A stretch of 20,282 nucleotides of DNA from a virus (IMGVR_UViG_3300042691_049672:1-20282), one strand, 5' to 3'; counted from the first letter of the stretch, positions 3,046-19,922 are shown. Translations and numbers: made by a program. The notes: a model not told the origin generated them from the sequence alone.

Positions 3046-3708
3046 ATGAAATTTATAACTTTATTCGAATCTTTTAAATCATTTGAAGATAATCGTATTT
3101 TATCGGAATTTTTGGATAAGGATTCTATGGTATATGAAAGTTCTTTATCTAGAATATGGCAACACATTGAAGGGGATAAATCCTTCGGGGTAATTTCCCC
3201 TTTCAGAAAATACTATTCAGAAAAAGAGAATCTGGAAAGATACAATGAGCTTAAAAAAATAATAAGAGATAGACTAAAATTAGGTTTTATCGAGATGGAA
3301 GGGGGATTTAAAGAGGAAGGAGAATGGGTTCACGAAAAGAGCCTATTTATACCAAATATTAAAAAAGAAGATTTAATAGAGATAGGAGAAAAATTTGATC
3401 AGTATTCTGTTATCTATAAAGACAAAAATGAATTTATTGAAATAGGTACCAATGATTTTTCGGTAAAAGGTCAAGTTCTATCTGATTTTATAAAAAAAGG
3501 ATGGAACAAAAATACTCAAATAAATTCCGAATTAACTAAAGAATTATTTTCAAAATTAGTTAAAGGAAGTCATAAAGATAGAAAATTTCTTTTTAACTTA
3601 AAAGAATCCTATCTGCTAGAGATAAATCCAAAATCTTTTAATGAGTCTTATGCCGAAGCTTCTTCGGGCAGAAAGGGATCACAAAGAAAATACATTAGGC
3701 TTCTATAG
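3046..3708 (+). CDS. DUF3293-like protein with capsid-targeting-like N-terminus
   Basis: A 220-residue protein. The core (SFGVISPFR, then SEKENLERYNELKKIIRD, GFIEMEGGF, EKSLFIPNI and a distal FDQYSVIYKD) matches the pattern I know for DUF3293-type proteins, which have no established activity. The first residues, MKFITLFE, end in L-F-E and resemble a T4-like capsid-targeting peptide with a potential cut after Glu8. If that is right, the protein is packaged in the head. Length beyond the core is a basic tail of about 70 residues. It converges on the minus-strand gene at 3703-4467, and the two share the palindrome CTATAG as stop codons on opposite strands (6-nt overlap). The domain name is from memory and was not searched. 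Confidence 0.75.
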   Translation: MKFITLFESFKSFEDNRILSEFLDKDSMVYESSLSRIWQHIEGDKSFGVISPFRKYYSEKENLERYNELKKIIRDRLKLGFIEMEGGFKEEGEWVHEKSLFIPNIKKEDLIEIGEKFDQYSVIYKDKNEFIEIGTNDFSVKGQVLSDFIKKGWNKNTQINSELTKELFSKLVKGSHKDRKFLFNLKESYLLEINPKSFNESYAEASSGRKGSQRKYIRLL

Positions 3709-4467
3709 AAATATTCTAGATTCGTATATCTTATCCACAGCCCTATAATTTCTTCCGGATATATCTACAGTCTCAATTTTTCCTACCAAATTCTCCGGAA
3801 CCCCAGGGGATCTAAGTAATTCATATGTTATTTTATTACCTTCTTTGGAAATAAATTTTGCTCTTTGTCCGTATACCGAAATTAGATCACCAGGTTTCAT
3901 CTCATCTCTAGGATTCATTTCTATGTTTTCCTTTTCGGGAATTAAAGGAATAGTCGTTTGTCCCCTCAACTCTCCACCTCTCCATTCGCTTACTATCATT
4001 TTAAATCCATTCTCGTTTGCTACCTTAGATATCCATGCTGCTTGGAAATTAGGAGAAAATGCCATAGGATATTCTCCAAAATGTTTTGTGAATCTTTCTT
4101 TAGCCTCATCATAGAAATTTAAAGCATCTTGATTAAAATAATAAACCTCATCTTTTGGAACTAATATTGTATGTTGTACGTTTCCTACCCCACTTTCTAC
4201 TTGTCCTTCCATTGTGTAGTATTGAGCAACTCCCCCTACACTACCTAATGCGGATGCTTCCGCTCTGTTAACGATAAGACTTCCTACACCAGAAGTCGGT
4301 TTTATAAAATCTCTTTTTTGTCCGGAGTAATGGTGAAAAACATAATTACCTTTACCGTCTTCAGTTAATCTCGATTTAACTTTCTCTGGTAAAACGTAAT
4401 GATTCGATTCATTTTCCATGATCGAATAAGATGATTTGATGAAATCGTTAAATTTTTTTATCCCCAT
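3703..4467 (-). CDS. Possible ADP-ribosyltransferase-fold protein with capsid-targeting-like N-terminus
   Basis: A 254-residue protein. The N-terminus MGIKKFNDFIKSSYSIME ends in I-M-E and fits a prohead-protease cut after Glu18. The central part has HHYSG at 45-49, then IKPTSGVG, then GGVAQYYT, an order that resembles the H/R...S...Y pattern of small ADP-ribosyltransferase (ART) domains in phage and polyvalent proteins. E161-W-R could supply an acidic residue. T4 packages the ADP-ribosyltransferase Alt in its head, so an ejected ART would be a close parallel. The fold call is tentative; an unrelated papain-like or binding domain is possible. The C-terminal 70 residues look like a small beta barrel (MKPGDLISVYGQRAKFIS). 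Confidence 0.7.
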   Translation of the reverse strand: MGIKKFNDFIKSSYSIMENESNHYVLPEKVKSRLTEDGKGNYVFHHYSGQKRDFIKPTSGVGSLIVNRAEASALGSVGGVAQYYTMEGQVESGVGNVQHTILVPKDEVYYFNQDALNFYDEAKERFTKHFGEYPMAFSPNFQAAWISKVANENGFKMIVSEWRGGELRGQTTIPLIPEKENIEMNPRDEMKPGDLISVYGQRAKFISKEGNKITYELLRSPGVPENLVGKIETVDISGRNYRAVDKIYESRIFL

Positions 4468-4468
4468 A

Positions 4469-4479
4469 ATTTATATATC
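4469..4479 (-). promoter_or_regulatory. Class B ATATATA box upstream of the ART-like gene
   Basis: On the minus strand GATATATAA is followed directly by ATT and the ATG at 4467, a gap of 3 nt. It shares a 79-bp divergent region with a class A motif facing the other way (4494-4523). Confidence 0.45.
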
Positions 4480-4493
4480 TTTTTCCTAATAAT

Positions 4494-4523
4494 TTTTTCT
4501 CTACGGATTAAATCTTATATTTA
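4494..4523 (+). promoter_or_regulatory. Class A promoter-like motif upstream of the SPFH operon
   Basis: A T-tract, then CTACG with CG at 4504-4505, a 10-nt spacer and TATATTTA at 4516-4523. It lies 23 nt before the ATG at 4547. It has the same layout and spacing as the other four class A sites. Confidence 0.6.
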
Positions 4524-4546
4524 TTTTAAATAATTAAAAATAATTA

Positions 4547-4735
4547 ATGAAGTATTTTAAAGTGTTTCTGATGTGGATGGGATTTATTGTCATTGCATCT
4601 TTATGTGGAGAGTATGCCATAAGTAGACCTGTAAACGGGTATGTTCAGCTTTTATGTGTCGTCGGGCTGGTCGGACTCTTAATTTATCTAGTAGACGAGA
4701 CAGTAACTATAATTAAAAATAAACAAGAAAAATGA
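4547..4735 (+). CDS. Small two-TM membrane protein, first gene of the SPFH operon
   Basis: A 62-residue protein with two hydrophobic segments, residues about 4-24 (VFLMWMGFIVIASLCGEYAI) and about 33-48 (VQLLCVVGLVGLLIYLV), and a short basic tail (IIKNKQEK). It is predicted to sit in the inner membrane as a hairpin. I do not recognise a family. It overlaps the SPFH gene by 4 nt (ATGA at 4732-4735), so the two are probably produced together and may form one membrane assembly. The ATG is preceded by an A/T-rich leader without Shine-Dalgarno pairing. Confidence 0.8.
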   Translation: MKYFKVFLMWMGFIVIASLCGEYAISRPVNGYVQLLCVVGLVGLLIYLVDETVTIIKNKQEK

Positions 4736-5679
4736 TTATTTCAATTTTAATTTTCGTATCATCTCTGGTCTTCGGAGTAATTTCAATTCTACGTGGGATC
4801 TCTATGAGATCTAACGCATCCTACAACGACTCTGCAGCTAAGAATGCAGGAAGTAAAAAAATAACCATCGGTATTGCTTCTGCTATCATTGGTTTGGTCC
4901 TTTCTTTTATCCAGCCGTTTTCTTTAGAAAGAATCGATGCAGGTAACAAAGGACTAAAAGTTAATTTAACCGGTTCTGATAGAGGTGTTAGCTCTTATCA
5001 ATATAAAACCGGTTGGGTATTCTATAACTCATGGACCGAGCAGGTTAAAGAATTTCCTTTATTCCAGCAACATATAGAATATGATGCCCAGCAAGTAATC
5101 ACGAAAGGAGGATTTGCAGCTACCATTAAGCCTTCATTTAATTACTCATTACGTGAAGATGCTATCGGAGAAATGTTTGTTAATCTTCGTCTGGAAATTA
5201 AAGAAGTTGAGCAAGGATGGTTGAAGAATGCTATCGTTTCTTCGGTAAATGATGTTGCTAACCGATGGGAAGTAGATGCAATCTTTAATAAAAGAGAGGA
5301 ATTTGAAGCTGCAATCATCGTAGAATGTAATAAGAGAGTTTCTAAGTGGTTCACAGTATCCCAGTTAAGAACTAACATTATTCCTCCAACATCATTACAA
5401 CAAGCTATCGAAGGTAAAACTAAAGCAGTTCAAGAAGCACAAGCGGCTCAGCAAAGAACTTTGGTCGCCCAGGCAGAGGCATTAGAGAAGATGGCAATTG
5501 CAAGAGGAGATTCTGCTAAGACAATCATTAATGCAAATGCAGCTGCATTGGCAATGAGGATCAAGCAGAAAGAATTAACCCCTCTTTATGTAGAGTTTGT
5601 TAAAGCATCTGCATGGGATGGAAAATTACCTACCACTATGGCAGGAAGTTCAGGGACATTCTTGAATATTAAAAACTAG
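4732..5679 (+). CDS. SPFH/Band 7 (prohibitin-like) membrane protein
   Basis: A 315-residue protein. Two hydrophobic segments (about 1-20 and 44-62) anchor it, followed by an SPFH/prohibitin domain from about 65 to 215 that includes QVITKGGFAATIKPSFNYSL. A long Ala/Gln-rich coiled-coil-type helix at about 220-285 (KAVQEAQAAQQRTLVAQAEA) is typical of prohibitin, HflK/C and flotillin oligomers. Such proteins form ring-shaped membrane cages that organise proteases or membrane domains. It lies between two small two-TM genes, and an AAA+ ATPase gene follows at 5931. By eye, codon use is less ATA-biased than in neighbours, which would fit high expression or separate ancestry. The family call is firm; its role in infection is unknown. 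Confidence 0.92.
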   Translation: MIISILIFVSSLVFGVISILRGISMRSNASYNDSAAKNAGSKKITIGIASAIIGLVLSFIQPFSLERIDAGNKGLKVNLTGSDRGVSSYQYKTGWVFYNSWTEQVKEFPLFQQHIEYDAQQVITKGGFAATIKPSFNYSLREDAIGEMFVNLRLEIKEVEQGWLKNAIVSSVNDVANRWEVDAIFNKREEFEAAIIVECNKRVSKWFTVSQLRTNIIPPTSLQQAIEGKTKAVQEAQAAQQRTLVAQAEALEKMAIARGDSAKTIINANAAALAMRIKQKELTPLYVEFVKASAWDGKLPTTMAGSSGTFLNIKN

Positions 5680-5680
5680 A

Positions 5681-5890
5681 ATGAAAGATCTTTTAATAAA
5701 ATCACTAATAACCGTCACAACACTGGCGGTTATTAGTCTTGTTTTCATATTTGCAGAGACTTTACCTCTTTTATCTTTTATCATTGTCGTTTTACTTAGT
5801 CTTTTTGTTATTTTCGGTATAGTTTATAGATTAATGAACTTTATCGAGGATAGAGAAAGAAAAGATGAGGATAAAGATTTAATATCATAA
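5681..5890 (+). CDS. Small two-TM membrane protein downstream of the SPFH gene
   Basis: A 69-residue protein with two hydrophobic segments, residues about 7-25 (KSLITVTTLAVISLVFIFAE) and about 29-48 (LLSFIIVVLLSLFVIFGIVY), and a highly charged C-terminus (EDRERKDEDKD). It starts 1 nt after the stop of the SPFH gene, so it belongs to the same operon. Its coding start contains a perfect 11-bp inverted repeat (5704-5737) that could fold in the mRNA. No family is recognised. With the 62-aa gene at 4547 it makes a symmetric small-membrane / SPFH / small-membrane arrangement. Confidence 0.8.
   Translation: MKDLLIKSLITVTTLAVISLVFIFAETLPLLSFIIVVLLSLFVIFGIVYRLMNFIEDRERKDEDKDLIS
5704..5737 (+). repeat. 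Perfect 11-bp inverted repeat inside a coding start
   Basis: ACTAATAACCG (5704-5714) and its exact reverse complement CGGTTATTAGT (5727-5737) flank a 12-nt loop. It begins 23 nt after the ATG at 5681 and lies entirely within the coding sequence. No T-tract follows directly, so it is not a standard terminator. It could reduce translation or protect the upstream SPFH message. Confidence 0.7.
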
Positions 5891-5930
5891 AGAAACTTAA
5901 TGGAAAATATAATCTAAAAAAATAAAAAAT

Positions 5931-6914
5931 ATGAGGAAAAAACATTACGGAGTAGAAGAGATCGAAAATCTTATAGCAGAAAGAAGAGTTTCTAATGAAT
6001 ATGCATCACCTGAATTAGAAAATTCCGGGAATAAAACTAGAAAAGGTAAAAAGTTTTCCTGCTGGGCTGTATTAGAAAATGATGAATTTCTTCCTTCTTA
6101 CCATACTATAGACGGGGTTCCTCCTGGGGTTTATGAAATATCTTATAATCCTAAACTTTCTACCGAGACATTAAAAAAGCAACCATTTAGAACTGATGAG
6201 CTTTATTCTCTTCCTTCTGATGAGATTATTGATATTCTTAAAGATATAGATAATTTTTGGAATATGAGAGATCAATACGAGAAATATAAATTTATCCACA
6301 AAAGAGGAATTTTAATGTTCGGAGAGCCTGGATGTGGTAAATCTGGTATTATCCAAATGGTTTCTAAAAATATTATAGAAAAAGGAGGAATAGTAATCAA
6401 CATTAAAGATGAGGATGACGTTGAAAGATTCTCTTCATTTATTCCTTCCTTCAGAGAAATAGAACCTAACCGTCCTTTAATAGTTATTCTAGAAGATATA
6501 GATTCTATAGCAGGTGAACATAGTTATTCCATAAGTAGGCTTTTGAATATTCTCGACGGGGTAAAGCAGATAGAAAATGTAGTTTATATCGCAACCACTA
6601 ATTACCCAGAAAAACTTCAGGAAAGAATAACTAATCGTCCTTCTAGGTTCGATCGAAGATATAAAGTGGAGCTTCCTAATGAGGATATCCGAAGATGTTT
6701 CATTGAGAATAAATTAAGTAAAGACGATCTTGAAAAAATAGATATAGAAGAATGGCTAAAGAGAACAGAAGGAATGTCTCTTTCACACCTAAAAGAAGTT
6801 GTTATCTCCGTAATTATAATGGGGAGAGGATTTGAAGAAACCCTAGATAATCTAGAAGGTCTTAAAAAAGCTCCAAGTGTTAGAGGAACAGGTAAGATGG
6901 GATTCGGGAAATAA
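5931..6914 (+). CDS. AAA+ ATPase (BCS1/FtsH-like AAA class)
   Basis: A 327-residue ATPase. Walker A is GEPGCGKS at 131-138, Walker B is LIVILEDID at 183-191, sensor 1 is ATTN at 221-224, and RPSRFDRR at 236-243 supplies the arginine-finger region of classical AAA proteins. About 110 N-terminal residues precede the ATPase core and show no membrane segment or protease domain, so it is a stand-alone remodelling ATPase. HflK/C and prohibitins are known partners of the AAA protease FtsH, so the nearby SPFH operon is suggestive, though 40 nt separate them and no peptidase is present. The leader is A-rich (AAAAAAATAAAAAAT) with no clear promoter box. Confidence 0.93.
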   Translation: MRKKHYGVEEIENLIAERRVSNEYASPELENSGNKTRKGKKFSCWAVLENDEFLPSYHTIDGVPPGVYEISYNPKLSTETLKKQPFRTDELYSLPSDEIIDILKDIDNFWNMRDQYEKYKFIHKRGILMFGEPGCGKSGIIQMVSKNIIEKGGIVINIKDEDDVERFSSFIPSFREIEPNRPLIVILEDIDSIAGEHSYSISRLLNILDGVKQIENVVYIATTNYPEKLQERITNRPSRFDRRYKVELPNEDIRRCFIENKLSKDDLEKIDIEEWLKRTEGMSLSHLKEVVISVIIMGRGFEETLDNLEGLKKAPSVRGTGKMGFGK

Positions 6915-6925
6915 AAATTAATTAA

Positions 6926-7315
6926 ATGAATAATAATTATATTTCAGACGAAGAATTTAAATCCTTTCTAGAATCTATAGGAGGTCTAGAAAATGGATTT
7001 TACGAGGATAGAGAACCGATAAAAGATTCAGGATTTTTCTGTATTGGAAACGGATGGCTAGGATTAGTAAAAACTCTAATAGAAGATTTGATCCAATTAG
7101 GATGGAATAAACAGATCTGCCAGGTTAAACAAAAATTTGGGGGGTTGAGATTTTATATCAATGAAGGAAGTAAAGAGATATTCGAAAAAATAACAGAAGC
7201 AGAAAATAGGTCTTACGAGATATGTGAAAAATGTGGCGAACCGGGTAAACCTACTAAAGGTGGATGGATAACGACATTGTGTGATTTTCACTTATACGAA
7301 AAAATAAACAGATAA
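6926..7315 (+). CDS. Conserved phage protein with C-terminal zinc-ribbon-like motif
   Basis: A 129-residue protein. The middle has GFFCIGNGWLGLVKTLIEDL and QVKQKFGGLRFYI, a combination I recognise from a widespread but uncharacterised phage/bacterial family. The C-terminus holds C-x2-C (CEKCG) and a distal C-x2-H (LCDFH), a probable single zinc site. No enzyme motif is seen. It starts 11 nt after the AAA+ gene and ends 1 nt before the next start, so it is part of a continuous plus-strand operon. Confidence 0.82.
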   Translation: MNNNYISDEEFKSFLESIGGLENGFYEDREPIKDSGFFCIGNGWLGLVKTLIEDLIQLGWNKQICQVKQKFGGLRFYINEGSKEIFEKITEAENRSYEICEKCGEPGKPTKGGWITTLCDFHLYEKINR

Positions 7316-7316
7316 A

Positions 7317-7706
7317 ATGGAAAATTGGCTATTAAATTGGACTGGATGGATATTAAGAAATACACATGCCCATCAGGAGGATCCTAATTCTGAAACCCCC
7401 TTGACATACGAATCCAATCCAACAGAATGGATACAGAAATCATATGAAATGTGGGAAAATAACTCAGATCACGGATGGAAAAGAAAGGAGGAGAAAGAAG
7501 AAAAGAAGAATATCATTACCTATACATTAGATCAAGAAGAATCTAAGAAATTAAAGGAATGGCAGGAACACATAAAAGCTATATATGGATCTTATGGAGA
7601 TTACATCTATAGTTTTGAAAGCGGAGGAGGAATAGGAACTATTAAAAAGGTTTGGAGTAAATTGGCTAATACGGAATTGGATTTAACAGATATAGATAAA
7701 TGGTAA
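7317..7706 (+). CDS. Conserved phage protein of unknown function
   Basis: A 129-residue protein rich in Trp and Glu. The C-terminal half (YTLDQEESKKLKEWQEHIKA, then YSFESGGGIGTIKKVWSK and LDLTDIDKW) follows a pattern common among small phage proteins of unknown function: a helix that binds or packs, a Gly-rich turn (GGGIGT) and a closing LDLTD..W. No signal peptide or metal site is visible. It ends 2 nt before the most likely start of the lipoprotein gene. Confidence 0.78.
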   Translation: MENWLLNWTGWILRNTHAHQEDPNSETPLTYESNPTEWIQKSYEMWENNSDHGWKRKEEKEEKKNIITYTLDQEESKKLKEWQEHIKAIYGSYGDYIYSFESGGGIGTIKKVWSKLANTELDLTDIDKW

Positions 7707-7708
7707 AT

Positions 7709-7966: not shown

Positions 7967-8109
7967 GAGTAAAAATATTACAATTTTTGGCGGATTTAAT
8001 TATTAAATCTTTAGAAAAAGAAAAAAATGAAATGGCTTTCGAAAGATTGCTAACTATGGGAATTTATCTAGACTACTACGCTACAAGTAAAGGAATCTAT
8101 TTAAATTAA
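7954..8109 (+). CDS. 51-residue protein of unknown function
   Basis: A short gene filling what would otherwise be a 147-nt gap. The ATG at 7954 overlaps the lipoprotein end by 13 nt, and the frame stays open to the TAA at 8107-8109, 4 nt before the next ATG. The protein begins MGKIRVKILQFLADLIIKSL, forms an apparent amphipathic helix, and ends YLDYYATSKGIYLN, a Tyr-rich ending seen in other small phage proteins. No family is known to me. Tight fit between neighbours and phage-like composition are the main support. Confidence 0.68.
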   Translation: MGKIRVKILQFLADLIIKSLEKEKNEMAFERLLTMGIYLDYYATSKGIYLN

Positions 8110-8113
8110 TTTA

Positions 8114-10625: not shown

Positions 10626-11012
10626 TTATATGTCTTTTACGACTATTACATGAAGTTTTATTGACATCGTTCCTCTAATTATGCAAGGCATATAATCTGT
10701 ACGATTTCCGCTAGATCGGAAAGGAGAAAAAACGAAAACTAAACAAGAAGTAGGTTCCCCTGAATTTCCTGTTGTATAGACATTGGATGTCCAATATTCA
10801 CCTGATTTAATACCAGAAACCCCCAATTCAAAAATATCATATATGTAAGACATCTCGTTGGCAGAAGGAATCCTCCATCCTTTTTCTTTTAAACCTTTAT
10901 CGTATGTGTGGAATGTTTTTAAGTATTCCTGAATTTCCACCCAGTTCATTTTCAATGATGGATTCATTATCATAGCTTCGATATTACCGGCTCTATATTT
11001 ATATCTTTTCAT
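10626..11012 (-). CDS. DUF1566/Lcl-type domain protein, paralogue 1
   Basis: A 128-residue single-domain protein. The core GWRIPS at 45-50 followed by YWTS at 73-76 and a C-terminal IVVKDI is the signature of DUF1566/Lcl C-terminal domains, which belong to the C-type-lectin/FGE-like fold. It is most similar to its neighbour at 11009-11374: both end with GTMS(I/V)KL...VI(V/L)VKDI. No signal peptide is seen. It is the last of four head-to-tail paralogues, each joined to the next by the same ATATGA junction. A binding or structural role is likely from the fold; the partner is unknown. Confidence 0.85.
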   Translation of the reverse strand: MKRYKYRAGNIEAMIMNPSLKMNWVEIQEYLKTFHTYDKGLKEKGWRIPSANEMSYIYDIFELGVSGIKSGEYWTSNVYTTGNSGEPTSCLVFVFSPFRSSGNRTDYMPCIIRGTMSIKLHVIVVKDI

Positions 11013-11374
11013 ATGTCTTTTACGAGTATTACGGGAAGTTTTACTGACATAGTTCCCATAGGTTTTATCGGTAGATATCTTCTAATAGTAAATTTAGGTG
11101 ATGTAAAAGTATAAGTCAAATAATAACTAGGATCTTCTGCATCTTTGGGGTATGGCTCGGAAGTCCAATATTCCCCTTTTTGTATTTCTAAAATTTCTAG
11201 ATTATAAAGATCATTAATATAGAATAATTCAGGGGAGGTTGGAAGTCTCCACCCTTCTTCTTTTAGCTCTTTATGATATCTATTTAAGTAATCGTAAATT
11301 CCCCACCATGTTTTTTTATCCGACGGATCGATTACCATTACTCTAAATTTTCCAAGATTGTAGTAGGTTTTCAT
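11009..11374 (-). CDS. DUF1566/Lcl-type domain protein, paralogue 2
   Basis: A 121-residue protein with GWRLPT at 41-46, YWTS at 69-72 and the C-terminal ILVKDI. It pairs closely with paralogue 1 in its C-terminal block and in the start (MK-x-Y...LGKFRVM). Between the core motifs the two differ strongly, especially in the stretch after YWTS, where loop residues of this fold usually form the ligand surface. The start overlaps the previous paralogue by 4 nt (ATGA). Confidence 0.85.
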   Translation of the reverse strand: MKTYYNLGKFRVMVIDPSDKKTWWGIYDYLNRYHKELKEEGWRLPTSPELFYINDLYNLEILEIQKGEYWTSEPYPKDAEDPSYYLTYTFTSPKFTIRRYLPIKPMGTMSVKLPVILVKDI

Positions 11375-11763
11375 ATATCTCTTACTAATCTAATTAAACA
11401 AGGGCTAGCTATGTTATAACCATATGTTCTTCCGTGGTCTATATAAACTCCTGTCCTCAGTTGATCTGTACCCGAATTTTCGAAAGTAGTAGATTCTGTC
11501 CAATACCCTCTTCTATCTGAATTTCCGTATTTGTCGAAGTCCCCTATCCCTAATCCTTTAGAAAGATCTATAAAATATAAAGCTTCTTCTGGAGTTGGAA
11601 GTCTCCATCTATCCCCCATTTTTTCCACCATTAGTCTAGTATCCTCCCAATCTAATTTTGCAGGAAAATCTTCTCTTGTAGTCTCGATCCTTCCCATTAT
11701 AAAGGTAGGAATATTTTTATAATATTTTATAAAACCTTCAATTCTGTATCGGTCTTCTTTCAT
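11371..11763 (-). CDS. DUF1566/Lcl-type domain protein, paralogue 3
   Basis: A 130-residue protein with RWRLPT at 52-57, GYWTES at 86-91 and the ending CLIRLVRDI. It has the classical DUF1566 ending (RLVRDI), which links the more divergent pair 1/2 to the family. The N-terminus is longer and more basic and carries an extra strand (YKNIPTFIMGRI). The start overlaps paralogue 4 by 4 nt (ATGA), and the end overlaps paralogue 2 the same way. Confidence 0.87.
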   Translation of the reverse strand: MKEDRYRIEGFIKYYKNIPTFIMGRIETTREDFPAKLDWEDTRLMVEKMGDRWRLPTPEEALYFIDLSKGLGIGDFDKYGNSDRRGYWTESTTFENSGTDQLRTGVYIDHGRTYGYNIASPCLIRLVRDI

Positions 11764-12113
11764 ATTCTTCTAACTAATCTTAATCTTCCTTTGCTCCAAG
11801 CTTCCACGGATCCCCCAAGAAAATCAAATAGGATAAAAGAAATCTCGGAATTTGAGGATGCCCAATAAGAATTATCCCCGAAACGTCCTATAGAATACTT
11901 CTGAGAATTCCATTCTTGACGATTATATGATGCGCAGTTAACTAATTTGTAAAGATACCTTATTTCATCATAGGTAGGAAGTCTCCATCCTTCTTCTGAA
12001 TATTTACCAAGATCTAAATTTTCTATTTCTTCATAGGACATATTTAAAGAAAAATCCGGATAATCCGAATCTTCCCTCATTACCTCTAAATTACCAGCTC
12101 TGAATGTTCTCAT
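11760..12113 (-). CDS. DUF1566/Lcl-type domain protein, paralogue 4 (first of the array)
   Basis: A 117-residue protein with GWRLPT at 42-47, YWASS at 83-87 and the ending RLRLVRRI. The ATG at 12113 is chosen because the product then begins MRTFRAGNLEVM, matching paralogue 1 (YRAGNIEAM). A GTG at 12128 would lie across the ATATATA box at 12117-12126. It is the first gene of the array and lies just after the terminator of the upstream operon, so the box is probably where this transcription unit begins. Confidence 0.86.
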   Translation of the reverse strand: MRTFRAGNLEVMREDSDYPDFSLNMSYEEIENLDLGKYSEEGWRLPTYDEIRYLYKLVNCASYNRQEWNSQKYSIGRFGDNSYWASSNSEISFILFDFLGGSVEAWSKGRLRLVRRI

Positions 12114-12116
12114 CTC

Positions 12117-12126
12117 TTTATATATC
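12117..12126 (-). promoter_or_regulatory. Class B ATATATA box upstream of the DUF1566 array
   Basis: GATATATAAA on the minus strand, 3 nt before the ATG at 12113 and directly downstream of an intrinsic terminator. This position, after a terminator and before the first gene of an operon, is the best positional argument that the box has a promoter role. Confidence 0.5.
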
Positions 12127-12128
12127 AC

Positions 12129-12158: not shown

Positions 12159-12332
12159 AGATTTTTTAGCTCCGTAGCATATAAGGGTTTCGTCTTTGAT
12201 TTCCCATAGATTTTTCTTTCCTTCCGTCATATGACAATTGTGAAGTCTTTTGGTTCTTCTGGAAAATTCTACTATCATATCATTGTGTCTATTCTTTACG
12301 AAATGAGGACATTCCTTACAAGGGGATTTCAT
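12138..12332 (-). CDS. Small Cys/His protein, DUF6283-like
   Basis: A 64-residue protein with C5-x2-C8-x-H near the N-terminus (SPCKECPHF), a central HNCHMT and a distal C-Y-G-A (LICYGAKKS). The order CxxCP...H-x-C-H...C.G resembles DUF6283-like phage proteins and probably binds one zinc ion. It overlaps the preceding gene by 4 nt and is the last gene of a three-gene Cys-rich operon; the stop codon is within the terminator stem. Function is unknown. Confidence 0.82.
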   Translation of the reverse strand: MKSPCKECPHFVKNRHNDMIVEFSRRTKRLHNCHMTEGKKNLWEIKDETLICYGAKKSKSLENI

Positions 12333-12523
12333 TTTACGAATTCCAAATTTTGATCTATTGTTTTTGAATCGTAATACCTAACTGTGGATTGACTTCCACA
12401 ATTACCGCATTCTGTTACTTGGGGTAAATTACATCCCATAGTTCCACATTCGAAACACTTAGTAAGGACACTATGGACATTTTTACCCTCTAAAAAAATT
12501 TCCCAAGAATTAATTTTATTCAT
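12329..12523 (-). CDS. Small zinc-ribbon protein
   Basis: A 64-residue protein with C-x2-C (CFECG), a further Cys at GC(N), and C-x2-C (CGNCG) about 16 residues later, the layout of a zinc ribbon. The rest is short and has no second domain. It overlaps the genes on both sides (8 nt and 4 nt), so it is cotranscribed with the other two Cys-rich genes. It may bind nucleic acid or a protein such as RNA polymerase, but that is inference from the fold alone. Confidence 0.82.
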   Translation of the reverse strand: MNKINSWEIFLEGKNVHSVLTKCFECGTMGCNLPQVTECGNCGSQSTVRYYDSKTIDQNLEFVK

Positions 12524-12820: not shown

Positions 12821-12831
12821 AATATATAGAT
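12821..12831 (+). promoter_or_regulatory. Class B ATATATA box upstream of the ImmA/IrrE-like gene
   Basis: AATATATAGAT ends one base before the ATG at 12833. The 14-mer ATATATAGATTATG, start codon included, is also found at the minus-strand gene starting at 16113. Confidence 0.45.
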
Positions 12832-12832: not shown

Positions 12833-13360
12833 ATGATAAAAAGCATTGAGGATTTTTTATTTGAGATAGGGATAGAAGAAAAATCTATTCCGGGGATATC
12901 CCGTTGGTGGAATGTAAATAGAAAAGAAATTTCTATATTTCATTTGGATTTTAAAACTCATAATCCTATAATTGGGATCTATGCGGGGGAAAATAAGATA
13001 TACATAAATAAAAAATCCACGGATCTTCCAGAGTTTAAATTATTTATAGCTATACATGAATCTTTTCATGATTCTCACGAAAAGAATGGGGAAATGGAAA
13101 GATGTTTTAACCTAACAAAACAGGGAAATCTTAAAGAATTTACCAGACTTTATAAAAAGTCCGAAAAAGAAGCAAACGATTTTGCAATTTCTTCTATGAT
13201 GGATCTTGGATTTTCCGAATTTATAGATTCTTCAGAAAGAAGGCTAAGAGGAAATGAGTTTGCTGGTCCTCAAGTATTTTCTATGATGAGAAGGGATATA
13301 GAAAAAACAGGATCAGAGAACTTTAAAGACCTTCTATTGAGCCAAATATCGGGACTTTAA
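12833..13360 (+). CDS. ImmA/IrrE-like HExxH metallopeptidase-fold protein
   Basis: A 175-residue protein with H75-E-S-F-H79 and, 32 residues later, E111-K-E-A-N-D-F-A. This HExxH...ExEANxFA order is the zinc-peptidase signature of the ImmA/IrrE family, whose members cleave repressors or act as regulators. The N-terminus MIKSIEDFLFE ends in L-F-E and could be a capsid-targeting-like peptide, though it fits less well than in other genes here. If packaged, it would be a protease delivered into the host. The usual ImmA partner (an XRE repressor) is not adjacent. It ends 21 nt from a convergent gene. Confidence 0.8.
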   Translation: MIKSIEDFLFEIGIEEKSIPGISRWWNVNRKEISIFHLDFKTHNPIIGIYAGENKIYINKKSTDLPEFKLFIAIHESFHDSHEKNGEMERCFNLTKQGNLKEFTRLYKKSEKEANDFAISSMMDLGFSEFIDSSERRLRGNEFAGPQVFSMMRRDIEKTGSENFKDLLLSQISGL

Positions 13361-14004: not shown

Positions 14005-14020
14005 ATAATAGGGGAAAAAA

Positions 14021-14458
14021 TTAGGGGTTTATATCTCTAATTAGGATATAGGAAAAAACATCTCCGTCATATTGTTCCCATTCTTCACTTTCCTGAACAT
14101 CCCATACGTAAATCTGATCCATTCCAGAATCATCAAAAGCAAAAGGATCTTCTGATAGGGTTTGCTGAATTTCATCGTCCCAGTCTCTTATTTTTTCGGG
14201 AATATAATCCTCACATGCCTCGGATGTTAAATAATAAAGTCCAGGAAAAGAAATAATTCCTAATGGTTCAAACCACGATAGAAATTTCCATTCTTTAATT
14301 GTTGGTAATCTCCATCCATCCTTATTTCCTTCTATAAGACCCAGGTTAAGAGCTTGGGTGTAGGTTAATTTACGATAAATATGTCCTGAATCTGATAATG
14401 GCTCATCTGAAACCTCTATTCCGGAATTTGGATAATTTATTCTTAGATTTTTTTCCAT
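14021..14458 (-). CDS. DUF1566/Lcl-type domain protein, paralogue 5 (separate locus)
   Basis: A 145-residue protein with GWRLPT at 48-53, YLTSE at 76-80 and the ending ILIRDINP, so it belongs with the tandem array at 10626-12113. It differs by an acidic insertion of about 40 residues after the YLTSE motif (DDEIQQTLSEDPFAFDDSG). The ATG at 14458 is chosen because it shares a base with the previous stop (TAATG); an in-frame ATG at 14506 would overlap that gene by 49 nt. It is the last gene of an operon that also encodes a SleB-like hydrolase and a beta-solenoid protein. Confidence 0.82.
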   Translation of the reverse strand: MEKNLRINYPNSGIEVSDEPLSDSGHIYRKLTYTQALNLGLIEGNKDGWRLPTIKEWKFLSWFEPLGIISFPGLYYLTSEACEDYIPEKIRDWDDEIQQTLSEDPFAFDDSGMDQIYVWDVQESEEWEQYDGDVFSYILIRDINP

Positions 14459-14871
14459 TATTTCATTTTTTTGAAATAAAAATACCCATATTCTTCTTGG
14501 GTCCAATCCAATACATCTGAGCTTTCTTTCGAAACTTCATGTTCTCCCCCGTTAGAATCGATTGCAACAGCATACTCTCCTGCCAAAAATCTATCTATTT
14601 CTTCAGGATCGTCTATGATAGCTGGAAATCCCCTGTAGTTTCCCTGTATTATAACATTGATTTCTGTAGTAATATTGTTTGAATATTTTTTGGAGATTGA
14701 ATTATAAATTCCTAGTTTATTCAAATCCTTAGCTATGTAGTTTCTTATTTTTAGAAGTTCTTTGGGGGAAATTCCTATCTTATTCATGAATGAATTTATA
14801 TCTCCTAATTCTTTCCATTCCTCCTTAGGAATTAATTTTATTCTATTTCCGATTATTAAATCCCCTTTCAT
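14458..14871 (-). CDS. Hypothetical protein between hydrolase and DUF1566 genes
   Basis: A 137-residue protein with an N-terminal basic region (IIGNRIKLIPKEEWKELGD), a helical middle and a C-terminal part (FLAGEYAVAIDSNGGEHEV). No family is recognised and no signal peptide or metal site is visible. It starts 1 nt after the SleB-like gene and its stop overlaps the next start by one base, so it is firmly part of the same operon. Confidence 0.77.
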   Translation of the reverse strand: MKGDLIIGNRIKLIPKEEWKELGDINSFMNKIGISPKELLKIRNYIAKDLNKLGIYNSISKKYSNNITTEINVIIQGNYRGFPAIIDDPEEIDRFLAGEYAVAIDSNGGEHEVSKESSDVLDWTQEEYGYFYFKKMK

Positions 14872-14872
14872 T

Positions 14873-15559
14873 CTAAGTTATATTAACAGATTGGGGTTTA
14901 GACTTAGGGGATAAATCTTTCTTGGCGTAAAAATTCTTTTTACCTGCATAGTTCCAAAAGAACGAATTGTGTTTTTCCTTAGCAGGTCTTTCCACTGGTT
15001 TAACTGCACCTCCTGAAGAAGGAGGAGAAGCTAAGAATTCTGTTCTAGACTGAACGTGTCTTCCTGCATTAGAGGAAAGGGTTGAATCTTTTTGAGCTTG
15101 TGTTGCAGTAACTATAGCTTCAGTAGCTTTTTTAACATCTACTCCTTTAGTTTTAGAATAAACATTAATAGCGTCTTTCATACTTTGAATATTATCCCAT
15201 TTAGCTCCTTTAGCTTTTCCCCTAGTTACAGGTTCATATTGGTTTTTTGAAAGTATTATCTCTTTTATTGTTTTACCGTAAGGCTTTCCGGGAACATTAA
15301 ATCTATTGTAAATGGATTGTGCTGTATCACTCATTCCCTGTTTTTCCGTAGAATAGTTTTCACAAGCTATAATAGTAATAAGGGTCCAGTAATCCTCTTT
15401 GCTAAAATTTGGATTAGCCTTAGCCTTAGCCTTAGCTGCTTTAGATAGAGATATCCCTGTAGTTCCCCATAAAGATTTCCATCCCTGCGTAAATTTAGAT
15501 ATAGCGTCGGTAAACCATCCTTCATTTATGAAATTTTCGTATTTTTCTATATTTTTCAT
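14873..15559 (-). CDS. SleB/Hydrolase_2-like cell-wall hydrolase with capsid-targeting-like N-terminus
   Basis: A 228-residue protein. Residues 58-110 (YWTLITIIACENYSTEKQG, then AQSIYNRFNVPG and TIKEIILSKNQYEPV) follow the SleB/Hydrolase_2 pattern of cortex-lytic enzymes: a catalytic Glu (E67), a YNR helix and a closing QY/QF. Such enzymes cleave glycan strands of peptidoglycan. The N-terminus MKNIEKYENFINE closely resembles the T4 capsid-targeting start MKTYQEFIAE, with a potential cut after Glu13. There is no export signal. Residues 42-48 are a short Lys-Ala repeat encoded by a TTAGCC hexamer repeat. The C-terminal 90 residues are low-complexity and basic. Confidence 0.8.
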   Translation of the reverse strand: MKNIEKYENFINEGWFTDAISKFTQGWKSLWGTTGISLSKAAKAKAKANPNFSKEDYWTLITIIACENYSTEKQGMSDTAQSIYNRFNVPGKPYGKTIKEIILSKNQYEPVTRGKAKGAKWDNIQSMKDAINVYSKTKGVDVKKATEAIVTATQAQKDSTLSSNAGRHVQSRTEFLASPPSSGGAVKPVERPAKEKHNSFFWNYAGKKNFYAKKDLSPKSKPQSVNIT

Positions 15560-15561
15560 TA

Positions 15562-16113
15562 CTATCCGTATATTTGTTTTATCATACAGTTTAAGATTCT
15601 ACTTTGCTTAATCCCTGGGATAAAGAAACTTTTTATGTTTTCGTCGTATACAGTTATACCTTTTCCATTTTCGAATCTTACGCCTTTAGAAAAATTAGGT
15701 AAACTTCCAGAAGAAAAAAATATAGATTCTCTATTTTGAAAAATTATAGGTCTATTAATATTATTTAGCAAATCAAATTTTAAATCCCCCGAATTTTTAA
15801 AAATTATATCTACATCGAAAGATCTTATGGATTCCATGTTAACATCTCCTCTGTTTCTGAATTTTATTCCTTCGGAAAGAGAAATAGCACCCTGGACGAA
15901 TACGTGGCCATCATTTTCAAATTCTGTACCTTTTGGAATAGAAGTAACATAATCCAAATAAACATCTCCTCCGTTTCTAAATATGACTCCTGGAGGTATA
16001 GAAGAAATATCAGCATCAAATAAAGAAGGTTCGTCAATTATTATCTTATTACCTTGCTCGGTAAAAGAGTATTCTTCCTTGTCCAGAAAATCCATGAATG
16101 TATCTCTCCTCAT
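15562..16113 (-). CDS. Beta-solenoid repeat protein 1
   Basis: A 183-residue protein made of about six imperfect 20-residue repeats with the pattern (I/L)xxGVxFxNxGxVYLxxxxS (for example IPPGVIFRNGGDVYLDYVTS at about 40-59). Regular hydrophobic positions and Asn/Gly turns suggest a right-handed beta-solenoid. A short N-terminal cap (YSFTEQGNKIIID) and the C-terminal helix RILNCMIKQIYG are shared with the paralogue at 16127-16621. It starts after a class B box and ends 2 nt before the SleB-like gene. Function is unknown; binding or structural roles suit the fold. Confidence 0.82.
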   Translation of the reverse strand: MRRDTFMDFLDKEEYSFTEQGNKIIIDEPSLFDADISSIPPGVIFRNGGDVYLDYVTSIPKGTEFENDGHVFVQGAISLSEGIKFRNRGDVNMESIRSFDVDIIFKNSGDLKFDLLNNINRPIIFQNRESIFFSSGSLPNFSKGVRFENGKGITVYDENIKSFFIPGIKQSRILNCMIKQIYG

Positions 16114-16114
16114 A

Positions 16115-16125
16115 ATCTATATATT
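16115..16125 (-). promoter_or_regulatory. Class B ATATATA box upstream of beta-solenoid gene 1
   Basis: AATATATAGAT on the minus strand, ending one base before the ATG at 16113. It occupies almost the whole 13-nt gap after the stop codon of the preceding gene. Confidence 0.45.
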
Positions 16126-16126
16126 T

Positions 16127-16621
16127 CTATTCCCCGTATAATTGTTTAATCATACAATTTAAAATTCTATTATTTGATATCCCACCGATAGAAATTTCAT
16201 CTAGCCCTTTTCCTCCTACAGCTCCCCCGTTATTAAATTTAACTCCTTTGCTTAAGCTCCCTATTTTTTCTCTAATGATAATATCTCCGGAATTTTGAAA
16301 AATCACATCTTCTTCTATTTTTTCTATTCCCCCATTGAAAACTAATCCGTGCCAATTTTTAAATATTGTTCCTTTGCCAATTTTATTTAGTCCTCCTTGG
16401 AAGTATATACTATTTCTACTTAAGAACAAAGTCCCCTCCGGAATTTCATTTAAAAAAGTAAATGAAATTCCTGCTGTATTATCAAACACTACTCCCTCTG
16501 GTATGGTTAAACATTCTAAACTTATATATTTAGAAGAATTTATAACTATCTTTCCGTCAATTTCTCTCCAGGAATATTTACCGGGATTTATGTGTTTATT
16601 TATGAATTCGGATCTATCCAC
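16127..16621 (-). CDS. Beta-solenoid repeat protein 2
   Basis: A 164-residue paralogue of the neighbouring gene, with about five 20-21-residue repeats such as LTIPEGVVFDNTAGISFTF and IEKIEEDVIFQNSGDIIIREK. It has the same N-cap (YSWREIDGKIVIN) and the same C-terminal helix RILNCMIKQLYG. The start is a GTG at 16621 that overlaps the end of the amidohydrolase gene by 8 nt; no ATG fits the conserved N-cap. The two solenoid genes are adjacent, so a tandem duplication is likely. Confidence 0.8.
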   Translation of the reverse strand: MDRSEFINKHINPGKYSWREIDGKIVINSSKYISLECLTIPEGVVFDNTAGISFTFLNEIPEGTLFLSRNSIYFQGGLNKIGKGTIFKNWHGLVFNGGIEKIEEDVIFQNSGDIIIREKIGSLSKGVKFNNGGAVGGKGLDEISIGGISNNRILNCMIKQLYGE

Positions 16622-17519
16622 CAGATTTATTTTTTAGATTAAATAGTCCCAGGATTTTTTTCTTTTTGGGCTCTTCTTTTGGAAGGTAATTCATTAATAA
16701 TTTATGGAGGTCTTCAGTACTTTTAGGGTTTAAAAGGTTAACCATTTCGGAAGAAGGCAATATTTTCATATCCAAAAGCTCATCATTTTTAATTACAATG
16801 GTAGGAATTTCCTCTTCTTTTTTAGTGGCATCCTCGTCATTAGATCCCATTGGAGTTGTTATAGGGTTTCCACCCCATCCGTCTAATATTTCACCCTTAT
16901 ACCTAAATGCAGCAGTTTGTAAAGGATTTTTCATTGCTACGGAATCCCAACTACTAATATCGTAATTTAATTCTATTTGTCCCTTTTTGTCCCCTGCAAA
17001 TCCACCTGAAGAATTTGATATTATTTTATTATCTTCTACCACAACCCCTACGTGTCCTGCTGATCTTCCTCTACTTGTGAGAATTATATCCCCTGGTTTT
17101 GATTCAGTTCTCCAACCCCTAATAATTTCCCATCTATCTTTGTCTGTTCCTGTGAAATAAGACCAAAGAGTGGAAGTTCCCAGTTCTATTGGATTTTTAT
17201 CTCTACCTTTTATTATAGGTAATCCTGTTGCTCTATAGAAAATTATAGATACTGCAGCAGCGCATCCCAAATTTCCTCCCTCTGTTGCAGGAATCCCTCT
17301 TGTCGGTACATTCAAATTCGCCCAAGCCGATTTTGCTATATCCCCGATTGGCTTATCCGCTGGTAAATTTAAATCTTCTATTTTATAATTTTTAGCATCT
17401 TTATCGTTAATCCCGATAGTTTCCCCGTATTTGTCAGGTTCTACTCCATATATTTCTGGAGGCATAATCACTGCTTCGGTTAGAGATACCCATTCTTTAA
17501 AACTTTTAATCTTATTCAT
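16614..17519 (-). CDS. NlpC/P60- or CHAP-like peptidoglycan amidohydrolase with capsid-targeting-like N-terminus
   Basis: A 301-residue protein. The catalytic core has Cys86 in NLGCAAAVSIIFYRATG and His156 in KPGDIILTSR...AGHVGVVVEDN, the Cys-His layout of papain-like NlpC/P60 and CHAP enzymes that cut peptide bonds in peptidoglycan. The N-terminus MNKIKSFKEWVSLTE ends in L-T-E, a possible cut after Glu15. No secretion signal is present. The C-terminal 75 residues are linker-like with a basic tail (KEEPKKKKILGLFNLKNK). Its start overlaps the 45-residue gene by 4 nt (ATGA), and that gene carries the same kind of N-terminus. Confidence 0.87.
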   Translation of the reverse strand: MNKIKSFKEWVSLTEAVIMPPEIYGVEPDKYGETIGINDKDAKNYKIEDLNLPADKPIGDIAKSAWANLNVPTRGIPATEGGNLGCAAAVSIIFYRATGLPIIKGRDKNPIELGTSTLWSYFTGTDKDRWEIIRGWRTESKPGDIILTSRGRSAGHVGVVVEDNKIISNSSGGFAGDKKGQIELNYDISSWDSVAMKNPLQTAAFRYKGEILDGWGGNPITTPMGSNDEDATKKEEEIPTIVIKNDELLDMKILPSSEMVNLLNPKSTEDLHKLLMNYLPKEEPKKKKILGLFNLKNKSGG

Positions 17520-17653
17520 CTATTTTTATTTTCTTTTACGCAATTAGGAACCATTTTACCTCTTTTGTTTTTCATACCGATCTGTTTATACCCTGGCCAG
17601 CAAGGTCCTTTCTTCTCGTTTATAAAATCTTCGAATTTAATTATATTTTTCAT
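17516..17653 (-). CDS. 45-residue protein: capsid-targeting-like start plus CWPGY...VPNC motif
   Basis: A very short gene from the ATG at 17653 to a TGA that overlaps the next start (ATGA). Residues 1-13, MKNIIKFEDFINE, are almost the same as the start of the SleB-like protein (MKNIEKYENFINE). Residues 16-39 contain GPCWPGYKQIGMK and MVPNCV, a short two-Cys motif that I know from the ends of several phage and bacterial proteins, of unknown role. Almost nothing else is encoded, so the product is a targeting peptide joined to this motif. It follows a terminator and a class B box and leads the operon with the amidohydrolase. Confidence 0.85.
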   Translation of the reverse strand: MKNIIKFEDFINEKKGPCWPGYKQIGMKNKRGKMVPNCVKENKNR

Positions 17654-17655
17654 CG

Positions 17656-17666
17656 ATGTATATATC
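17656..17666 (-). promoter_or_regulatory. Class B ATATATA box upstream of the 45-residue gene
   Basis: GATATATACAT on the minus strand, 2 nt before the ATG at 17653 and 4 nt after the T-tract of the terminator at 17671-17696. This is a second case of the box directly following a terminator. Confidence 0.48.
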
Positions 17667-17670
17667 CCTC

Positions 17671-17696
17671 AAAAAAATAGACCTTTCGGTCTATTT
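17671..17696 (-). terminator. Intrinsic terminator of the 17691-18233 gene
   Basis: A perfect 9-bp stem (17675-17683 with 17688-17696) closed on the minus strand by a GAAA tetraloop and followed by T's (seven-T run 17677-17671, partly in the stem). The stop codon of the upstream gene (17693-17691) lies inside the stem, as in the terminator at 12129-12158. Confidence 0.88.
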
Positions 17697-18233
17697 CTTA
17701 TTTCTTTTTCCTTTCTCCTCTTTTCTCTTTCCCCTATCGTAGAACCCGACTTCTATGTCTTCTGCCAAATTTTGAATCTGATCATCCCCCGATACCGAGA
17801 TTCTAAGATCATAATATTCCCATTTTGTTTTGAAGTCCCAGATCATAATCCCTTTAGTTAATCTCTTACTTAGATTATGTAGAGGAAAATTTCTAACCCT
17901 TACTATAGAATTATCGGATCCAAAAAGGTGTAGGAATCTAAGAAACCATCTCGGGCACCACTTCGGTCTTGCTTTATGATCCATAAATATGACTAAAGGC
18001 TCCATTGCCTTAAATATTTCTCCTTCTTCGATCCAGGGAATAGATCCAAGGTATCTATATTTCTCATAGAAATTTTTAGGGAAAAATACTTCTCGGATCT
18101 CACTCCACCCTATTCTACTAGTGGTTATTATCCCTTTCTTTCGGCTTCTCCAGAACAAAAGGGATTGAAAAAACCCCAGGGCTCTTTCTTTAAAAGGTTT
18201 AGGAGTGTAAAATTTACTTCTTTTGAACGGCAT
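17691..18233 (-). CDS. Conserved hypothetical protein, basic and aromatic
   Basis: A 180-residue protein, rich in Lys, Arg, Phe and Trp. The segment KARPKWCPRWFLRFLHLFGSDNSIVRVRN, followed by LTKGIMIWDFKTKWEYYDLRIS, looks like the conserved core of a phage-specific family; I do not know a function. The C-terminus is very basic (DRGKRKEEKGKRNKK) and could bind nucleic acid. No catalytic motif is clear. It is a single-gene unit: divergent from the gene at 18318 and closed by its own terminator. No class A or B motif is evident before its ATG. Confidence 0.78.
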   Translation of the reverse strand: MPFKRSKFYTPKPFKERALGFFQSLLFWRSRKKGIITTSRIGWSEIREVFFPKNFYEKYRYLGSIPWIEEGEIFKAMEPLVIFMDHKARPKWCPRWFLRFLHLFGSDNSIVRVRNFPLHNLSKRLTKGIMIWDFKTKWEYYDLRISVSGDDQIQNLAEDIEVGFYDRGKRKEEKGKRNKK

Positions 18234-18294
18234 TTTACTTTTTTATAGATGAAATTTTTAGTTTTATTTCTCTAAAAATAAGAAAATTAAAACA

Positions 18295-18306
18295 GATATA
18301 TAAAAT
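18295..18306 (+). promoter_or_regulatory. Class B ATATATA box upstream of the fusion enzyme
   Basis: GATATATAAAAT, 11 nt before the GTG at 18318, in the 84-bp divergent region. The leader is A-rich, with no clear Shine-Dalgarno sequence. Confidence 0.45.
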
Positions 18307-18317
18307 AAAAATACCTG

Positions 18318-19922
18318 GTGATACTTAAGTTTAGAGAATTTATAAACGAATCTTATATGTCCGAATCGGAATATGTGGTTCAGAAGGGGGATAACCTATC
18401 TGGGATTGCACAGGAATTAGGAATTGGCGATTGGAGAAAACTATATGATCTGAATAAAGATTCCATAGGGGAAAATCCAAGCAATCTAAAGGTGGGAATG
18501 AAATTAAAAACCCCGAAGGAATCCAAAGAGATAGAAGGAAAAAAGAAGGAGAAAAAGAAGGAGAAAAAAATAGAACCTTTAAAAGATCTTTTCCTTAACC
18601 CTTTGGATCTAGTTGCCCCCCTAACTCCTAAAGTTCTATTAAAAAATATAAAACCTATAAATTTCAAAACGGAATATAAGAATTGGGAAGATATCAAAAA
18701 AAGGATTAAGTCTGTAAATGCGATGGTTCCTTCTGAGATCATTAAAGAATACCACAAGGATACAAAAGATAAGTACCTAATTTTGGATAAGAAAAAAGGT
18801 CAGATGAAATTATATCAGGGTAATAAAGAGATTTCAACTTTTAGGGTGGGAATAGGACAAAATTTCGGGGATCATCAGACAAAAACAGTAGTAAAAGATG
18901 GAAAAGTCTACTGGGAAGAAGGAAATAGAATGACCGGAGCAGGAATTTATACTGTTTCAGCGGTAAACCCTAAAAATGAACACTATTCCGATGCACCAAG
19001 CTTTAACTTTAGAAATGAAGCAGGTATAGAAGTTCCCATGGCTATACACAGTTCATTTGGAAATAGAACAGGAAAATTAAAAGACGAGGATTTAAAAAAT
19101 AATAGACTTTCTAATGGGTGTATAAATGGAATTGCAGACGAGCTTAAAGTTCTATACAGCCAGGGATATGGTGAAGGGTCTTTACTTTACATACTTCCGG
19201 ACGAATCCGAAAATAAATTTCAAATAGTTAACGGTAAACTTGTATTTAGATCCAAAGATCCAGAAGTCAATCGAAGCACAAAAACCCTAAACTATAAACC
19301 AATAAAAGTTGTGATTGACGAAACTGCTTTCAAAGATGCGGTTTATCAAGCTCTAGATTTTAGCGACGACGAAGAATATAATAACACGACAAAACCTTTC
19401 GTTAAAGCTTTGGAAGATAACAAAAGAAAGGTCATGTTAGCAGCGAAAATAAATGGTGATGTCTATAATGATCTAGTTAAAGTTGCTTTTGGTATTTACG
19501 GAACCGAAAGTAATTTCGGGGATACCCATAGTGCGGTTGGAAATCTTTTCAGAGCAGGTAAAAAATTCTTATCACCTAGTTCTTCCAGTTCCCCTGATTA
19601 TATGAGTAAGGCAACCACCTACGGAGCTAATAAAGATAGTAACAGCGTTGGTCTAACCCAGATAAGATTTAACATGTTAGATCAATCAGAAAAAGATATA
19701 CTTAAGAAGCTAGGGATAACAAGCAATCAGCAGCTTCTTAAACCGGAGGGAGCAGCTTTAGCAACTCTAGGAATTTTGGCGGCAAGGTATAATAATCAGC
19801 TAACGGACGAAGAAAGAAAGGATCCTATGGCAAACCTCCCTAAGAAATGGAACGTAAGAAAAAATTATCCAGATAGGGTAAAATCAAATTCTAGATTTAT
19901 AACGGTAAAAGAAGAGGTTTAA
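18318..19922 (+). CDS. LysM + L,D-transpeptidase (YkuD) + lytic-transglycosylase-like fusion with capsid-targeting-like N-terminus
   Basis: A 534-residue protein. After MILKFREFINE (I-N-E, possible cut after Glu11) comes a LysM domain at about 19-63 (VQKGDNLSGIAQELG...LKVGMKL), a Lys-rich linker to about 85, and a YkuD domain at about 150-295 with His244 (AIHSSFGNR) and catalytic Cys268 (RLSNGCINGIADEL). The C-terminal domain from about 375 has GTESNFG with Glu397 and SVGLTQIR, the pattern of SLT/lysozyme-like transglycosylases. It could bind, cross-link or release, and cut peptidoglycan. Start: GTG at 18318 is the only credible one, because a stop lies four codons upstream in frame. There is no secretion signal. 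Its stop overlaps the convergent gene. Confidence 0.88.
   Translation: MILKFREFINESYMSESEYVVQKGDNLSGIAQELGIGDWRKLYDLNKDSIGENPSNLKVGMKLKTPKESKEIEGKKKEKKKEKKIEPLKDLFLNPLDLVAPLTPKVLLKNIKPINFKTEYKNWEDIKKRIKSVNAMVPSEIIKEYHKDTKDKYLILDKKKGQMKLYQGNKEISTFRVGIGQNFGDHQTKTVVKDGKVYWEEGNRMTGAGIYTVSAVNPKNEHYSDAPSFNFRNEAGIEVPMAIHSSFGNRTGKLKDEDLKNNRLSNGCINGIADELKVLYSQGYGEGSLLYILPDESENKFQIVNGKLVFRSKDPEVNRSTKTLNYKPIKVVIDETAFKDAVYQALDFSDDEEYNNTTKPFVKALEDNKRKVMLAAKINGDVYNDLVKVAFGIYGTESNFGDTHSAVGNLFRAGKKFLSPSSSSSPDYMSKATTYGANKDSNSVGLTQIRFNMLDQSEKDILKKLGITSNQQLLKPEGAALATLGILAARYNNQLTDEERKDPMANLPKKWNVRKNYPDRVKSNSRFITVKEEV

Follow-up and report, generated by a model that had tools for sequence, protein, structure and literature searches.

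A shared N-terminal tag, probably a T4-type capsid-targeting sequence, on unrelated proteins of a viral fragment and its large phage relatives

The viral fragment IMGVR_UViG_3300042691_049672 (here the window, complete in IMG/VR at 20,282 bases) contains six genes whose products open with a short Lys- and Phe-containing segment ending in (L/I)-x-E, which we call the tag. Translation of the open reading frames (ORFs) found all six N-termini where the initial annotation had placed them, and the bodies behind them are, as it had also claimed, unrelated. Two of the genes lie on the plus strand: 3046–3708 encodes a DUF3293, S-adenosylmethionine (SAM)-lyase-like protein with the tag MKFITLFE as residues 1–8 (3046–3069), and 18318–19922, with a GTG start codon, encodes a LysM plus YkuD (L,D-transpeptidase-like) protein with the tag MILKFREFINE (18318–18350) and LysM from residue 19. 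The other four lie on the minus strand and are named here by their start positions: 4467 (3703–4467; tag MGIKKFNDFIKSSYSIME, 4414–4467) encodes a domain that also occurs in a podovirus structural protein (phage elemo), 15559 (14873–15559; tag MKNIEKYENFINE, 15521–15559) a SleB-type cell wall hydrolase, 17519 (16614–17519; tag MNKIKSFKEWVSLTE, 17475–17519) a CHAP amidase-like protein, and 17653 (17516–17653; tag MKNIIKFEDFINE, 17615–17653, followed by the motif CWPGYKQIGMKNKRGKMVPNCV) a basic protein of 45 residues. A seventh gene, 12833–13360 (plus strand; tag MIKSIEDFLFE, 12833–12865), was listed as a weaker case; it has an HExxH metalloprotease-like motif and its own late-type promoter. A 64-residue zinc-ribbon-like protein (12329–12523, minus strand), which starts MNKINSWEIFLE and for which no promoter of its own was seen, is a weak eighth candidate. 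A secretion signal peptide was ruled out by eye, as the segments are charged and have no hydrophobic core.

Homologues of these proteins place the window among large phages. A longer copy of the window virus (L209) has an upstream extension holding a gene that also occurs in G001, a 250-kb contig; the window CHAP protein is 69% identical to its G001 homologue, which starts MKNLINFESWISLNE, and the SleB-like protein has 57% identity to a tagged homologue there. The N-terminus is kept in near relatives of the 3046 protein (MK[FY]ITLFESF in 5/5), and the tag segment is variable in its middle in relatives of the 4467 protein. The LysM-YkuD protein, used as query, found no relatives among phage records or viral contigs.

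Late-promoter-like ATATATA boxes precede five of the seven genes: on the plus strand at 3022–3028 (24 nucleotides ahead of the 3046 start), 12822–12828 (11 nucleotides ahead of 12833) and 18296–18302 (ahead of 18318), and on the minus strand at 4472–4478 (11 nucleotides ahead of 4467) and 17659–17665 (12 nucleotides ahead of 17653). Of the tagged genes with no adjacent box, 17519 overlaps 17653 and lies downstream of it, and 15559 follows a gene at 15562–16113 that has a late-type promoter itself and whose product starts MRRDTFMDFLDKEE. Across four large relatives (G001, G002, G004 and G011) the box stands 8–30 nucleotides upstream of 37/101 tagged genes and 133/1404 other genes (p = 2.7e-12). 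In G001 it is also found ahead of the sheath, portal, head-closure, protease and endolysin genes, and a gp55-type late sigma gene was present in 4/4 genomes tested. Tagged genes are thus predicted to be expressed late, under T4-type late promoters.

The motif is short and degenerate, and AT-rich genomes begin many proteins with MK, so that a chance or compositional likeness in an A+T- and Lys-rich genome has to be weighed; the null comparisons make this explanation highly improbable. With ORF starts called at the first ATG (a Shine-Dalgarno-dependent gene caller picked wrong starts and was dropped), an a priori rule worded from the initial annotation fits 15/41 window ORFs, against 4.5 (maximum 10) for internal segments and 5.0 (maximum 12) for shuffled N-termini in 500 trials. 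The initial annotation had also proposed scanning all proteins of the full genome with a profile of the six N-termini. Such a profile, trained solely on these six and used at score 5 against a null of internal protein segments, gave an excess in all four large relatives, with 24 matches against 3.1 expected in G001 (one being the CHAP protein, a homologue of a training sequence), 34 against 4.9 in G002, 28 against 3.8 in G004 and 15 against 3.1 in G011. The excess extends to PAU (15 against 3.5) and Lak-A1 (400 kb; 12 against 4.9), is weaker in PTm1 (8 against 3.6), stands at 4 against 1.9 in T4, and is absent in the AT-rich phage G (2 against 3.5) and in phiKZ (0 against 0.9). The promoter association likewise argues against chance, as does a comparison in which the profile was not used: aromatic residues occupy both −3 and −6 at 21% of N-terminal (LIV)xE sites behind late promoters and at 1.4% of 4809 internal (LIV)xE sites (p = 5e-14).

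The proteins recovered in T4 and PAU point to the head. The T4 sequence MKTYQEFIAE, which the initial annotation had quoted for internal protein I, was seen in ipII and ipIII, the two T4 internal proteins looked at, and under the window profile these two rank at the top of 278 T4 ORFs, found blind. Both are textbook capsid-targeted proteins. Four of the five PAU genes annotated as "internal capsid protein", a label for which the record gives no evidence, start MK[STG][IL]xxLYE, and three of these continue xKLNE. With a strict regular expression for the core motif, PAU, PTm1, Lak and G011 showed hardly any excess or none; since PAU uses a variant (LYExKLNE), the core motif is lineage-specific.

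The head genes on which such a signal would depend in T4-like phages are present in the relatives. For the gp21-type prohead protease that the initial annotation named as a check, Peptidase_S77 turned up in G001 and likewise in each of 14 more relatives searched, one match lying just under the family cut-off. As for HK97-type head maturation, G001 encodes a capsid protein of the gp23 type (PF07068, E = 2e-41), and its kin are the capsid proteins of Prevotella Lak phages, Tenacibaculum PTm1, Sphingomonas PAU and Chryseobacterium MA9V-1. The lack of such a protease or of such maturation, which the initial annotation had set as grounds for refutation, was therefore not borne out. An S77 protease was also found in T4, PAU, PTm1 and Lak-A1, and was not found in phage G or phiKZ, the two genomes with no tag excess. 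A PF03420 search of the window itself gave no match, as expected for a 20-kb fragment.

Tagged enzymes also occur among virion proteins of T4-like cyanophages. Mass spectrometry (MS) of S-CREM2 virions detected a SAM hydrolase, an APH-like kinase, a cytidylyltransferase and a Cas9-like nuclease (PMC10665884), whose N-termini are, in order, MKDFDSFLEE, MKRFDAFLTE, MKNFSSFLTE and MTSRWSNWSTGSDKKPLRFASFMAE (...RFASFMAE). The core motif is carried by 5/28 virion proteins with no structural assignment and by 2/176 undetected proteins (p = 6e-4), a count that missed the kinase through start choice. If cut after the tag Glu, the SAM hydrolase would begin FDRDQESLEESS. The paper is silent on any N-terminal signal, and its authors thought carry-over possible (PMC10665884). 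In S-SCSM1, the virion NMNAT starts MKSFLQFLKE. These enzymes bear on the idea that the tag is a localization or partner-binding signal within the infected cell, for example for docking on scaffold or assembly sites, with no packaging or ejection. Many of the cargoes are soluble enzymes, and likeness to a scaffold repeat (described below) would by itself predict only scaffold binding; we nevertheless regard a purely intracellular role as unlikely, because packaging is established for the T4 capsid-targeting sequence (CTS) proteins that have this motif, because the MS-detected S-CREM2 and S-SCSM1 virion enzymes bear the tag, and because PAU internal capsid proteins bear a version of it.

We therefore read the shared N-terminus, with a probability of roughly 0.83, as a T4-type CTS with the consensus M-K-N-I-K-x-F-x-x-F-(L/I)-N-E↓S (the arrow marking the presumed cut), carried by cargo that is made late, packaged, probably cleaved, and leaves with the DNA. 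Packaging in the head, the core of what the initial annotation proposed by analogy, is well supported by inference from the S77 and gp23-type genes, the blind recovery of ipII and ipIII, the PAU internal capsid proteins and the tagged enzymes in T4-like particles. The sequences themselves establish the tag and its modular use, the promoters, the genes for protease, capsid and scaffold, and the shared sites; tagged enzymes in purified particles come from published mass spectrometry of T4-like cyanophages only. Beyond this we infer docking on the scaffold, cleavage and ejection, and for the cargo a part in anti-defence or in modifying the host. Tagged proteins would be made late from T4-type late promoters, and the tag, passing for one scaffold repeat, would join them to the prohead core. 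The gp21-type (S77) protease would probably cut after Glu at (L/I)-x-E↓(S/N/A), a site that it would also use on the capsid propeptide and on the repeats of the scaffold, and the freed cargo would exit the head with the DNA on infection. Within a genome the tag serves as a module, placed on tens of cargoes, most of them unrelated to one another.

Several points weigh against this reading. Chance is expected to account for about 1/7 of the profile matches, and the window is a fragment with no capsid genes, the protease and capsid being seen in relatives. The presence of cargo from the window lineage in virions is suggested by analogy with S-CREM2, S-SCSM1 and PAU. Abundant cytoplasmic proteins can carry over into cyanophage proteomes according to the authors of those proteomes, and S-SCSM1 also lists RegA as a virion protein, which makes carry-over a real concern. 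Adenylate kinase, ClpP and RimK, which are among the tagged proteins of the relatives, are odd as head cargo. The short MKxIxLFE forms do not fix the cut position, which for some may be a later NE.

How the tag might work is suggested by the scaffold. In G001 the S77 protease is fused to a long scaffold-like region, and in the four genomes the scaffold half of this fusion consists of 13–14 tandem repeats whose period is exactly 14 residues, YSxY(L/V)AENLDxxIx. The core of the repeat, (Y/F)xxY(L/V)AE↓N, is similar to that of the tag, FxxF(L/I)NE↓S; a G002 tag, for instance, has FSEFLAE where the scaffold has YSEYLAE. Ranked by profile-like internal sites, the scaffold protein comes first in all four proteomes (5–7 sites against 0.7–0.8 expected), although these genomes are kin and hence not four independent results. 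It is also first in PTm1 (4 against 0.7), and the first rank fails in PAU and Lak. An identical capsid propeptide site, CHYHSLNE↓SAGA, occurs in 78/78 relatives (motif CHYHSLNESAGA at the L018–L097 capsid loci); it has the LNE↓S of the tags and lacks the aromatics at −3 and −6 (HYHSLNES). From these sequences, (L/I)xE↓(S/N/A) would be the protease site, with the aromatics serving for docking.

The tag could then be one stand-alone copy of the 14-residue scaffold repeat (YSxYLAENLDxxIx), by which cargo adds itself to the repeat array and from which it is freed, at the same site, by the protease that dices the scaffold. We put this forward tentatively, at slightly less than even odds; if true, it would account for the action of such short targeting sequences and for the ability of any protein to become cargo. 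Packaging may equally well be real while the likeness reflects nothing beyond the specificity of a shared maturation protease, with no mimicry. Tag and scaffold must both offer (L/I)-x-E to one protease, and LNE↓S occurs in the capsid propeptide too; the aromatics at −3 and −6, on the other hand, are common to tags and scaffold repeats, absent from the propeptide, and rare as a pair at other (LIV)xE sites. We give shared specificity as the whole explanation likewise a little less than an even chance.

Among the individual cargoes, the 3046 protein is predicted to be SAM-lyase-like from sequence motifs and a structural model. It matches PF11697 (E = 1.7e-8) and, under the cut-off, PF23780 (3.8e-5), and found no sequence match among solved structures. 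As to a PII-like fold, the best Foldseek matches of its model are phage SAM lyases (6zm9, E = 1.9e-4; 6znb, 6.6e-4), but the model is weak overall, with a mean predicted local distance difference test score (pLDDT) of 50 and a core of about 60–89. In a hand-made alignment, G86, E97 and Q119, which correspond by motif position to the SAM-lyase Gly, Glu and Gln, are invariant in five homologues, and the SAM-lyase Tyr58 is replaced by Phe. The S-CREM2 virion SAM hydrolase (gp6) is homologous to it at 35% identity. DUF3293 was not found in 18/19 relatives, which makes this cargo sporadic. A phage SAM synthetase gene (1862–3013) lies directly before 3046, so that predicted opposite activities are adjacent within 1862–3708. 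Possibly, SAM is depleted on entry and restored later.

The 4467 protein has 45% identity to residues 2001–2227 of a "structural protein" of about 3,600 residues in Flavobacterium phage elemo, a giant protein that also has a DUF3293 domain at residues 1254–1323. The similarity begins at query residue 12, within the tag region, and the tag therefore has the look of an addition. At pLDDT 40, the AlphaFold model of this protein was too poor for a structure search, and comparison with sequences of solved structures gave a single, meaningless match. The 15559 and 17519 proteins match PF07486 (1e-4) and PF05257 (6.9e-5), both under the cut-off, and the LysM-YkuD protein matches PF01476 and PF03734, both over it. 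The 12833 protein matches phrog_87, a metalloprotease family (9.6e-6), and its sequence contains HESFH. The CWxGYxxxGMKxKxGxxVPNCV motif of 17516–17653 occurs in 343 phage records, mainly of T4-like cyanophages, in longer proteins such as T4-GC_119 of S-BM3.

Adenylate kinase and RimK, identified by N-terminal sequence, are tagged in all four genomes. Other tagged proteins in the relatives include ClpP, CCA/polyA polymerase, phosphoribosyltransferase, SLT transglycosylases, CHAP and peptidoglycan-binding proteins and a ClpB-like ATPase. The ClpP (G001, 223727–224401) and the ClpB-like ATPase (G011, 166327–168792), both with tag-like N-termini, come from different relatives. Three tandem paralogues in G011 (147039–149936; L137:7039–9936) share the identical tag MKHLQSFSLFE.

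Capsid-targeting sequences and injected, restriction-blocking T4 internal proteins are already known. T4 IPI–IPIII and Alt, with a CTS of about 10 residues, share with the window system a set of unrelated proteins whose Lys/aromatic N-terminus closes with (L/I)xE, along with gp21/gp23 and gp55-type late transcription. Here, in contrast, tens of cargoes per genome are found, many of them enzymes, against about three or four in T4, and the scaffold, joined to the protease in one protein, is built of tandem repeats that resemble the tag. The T4-like cyanophage virion enzymes of S-CREM2 and S-SCSM1 carry a similar tag, MKxFxxFLxE, in a different host group. A further comparison is with polyvalent proteins (Iyer et al., 2017; PMC5512222) and with the elemo giant protein, which has domains of the same types (DUF3293 and the 4467 homologue), apparently virion-borne in elemo; there the domains are fused in one polypeptide, whereas the window has separate genes, each with its own tag, and its cargoes do not combine several effector domains as polyvalent proteins do. 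Ejection proteins of SPN3US and phiKZ also form a large head-packaged set cut by the prohead protease, although with another protease and capsid lineage, and the profile finds no tags in phiKZ. The literature searched, outside which most subscription papers fall, held no report of tens of tagged enzymes per genome, and none that notes the tag on virion enzymes of cyanophages or the likeness to a scaffold repeat.

A tag readable from sequence would make head-packaged proteins predictable in a widespread group of large T4-like phages (Lak, PAU and Tenacibaculum relatives), in which the majority of genes lack an assigned role. It flags many candidate injected effectors, among them the SAM-lyase-like protein next to SAM synthetase, wall hydrolases and host-modifying enzymes, and it offers an explanation for cyanophage virion enzymes earlier suspected of carry-over. 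Through the scaffold likeness, the working of the CTS becomes directly testable.

Further features of the window lie apart from the tagged genes. At 10626–12128 and 14021–14506 lie paralogues in tandem that have a WRLPT...E motif and look DUF1566/Lcl-like by eye; one of them is behind a late-type promoter. Repeats such as FxNGGxVxLxxLxxIPxGxxF, of beta-helix-like appearance, are found in 15562–16621 and 19919–20281. A phage SPFH/Band 7 membrane protein (PF01145, E = 8e-19) is encoded at 4732–5679, followed by an AAA ATPase with a homologue in G001.

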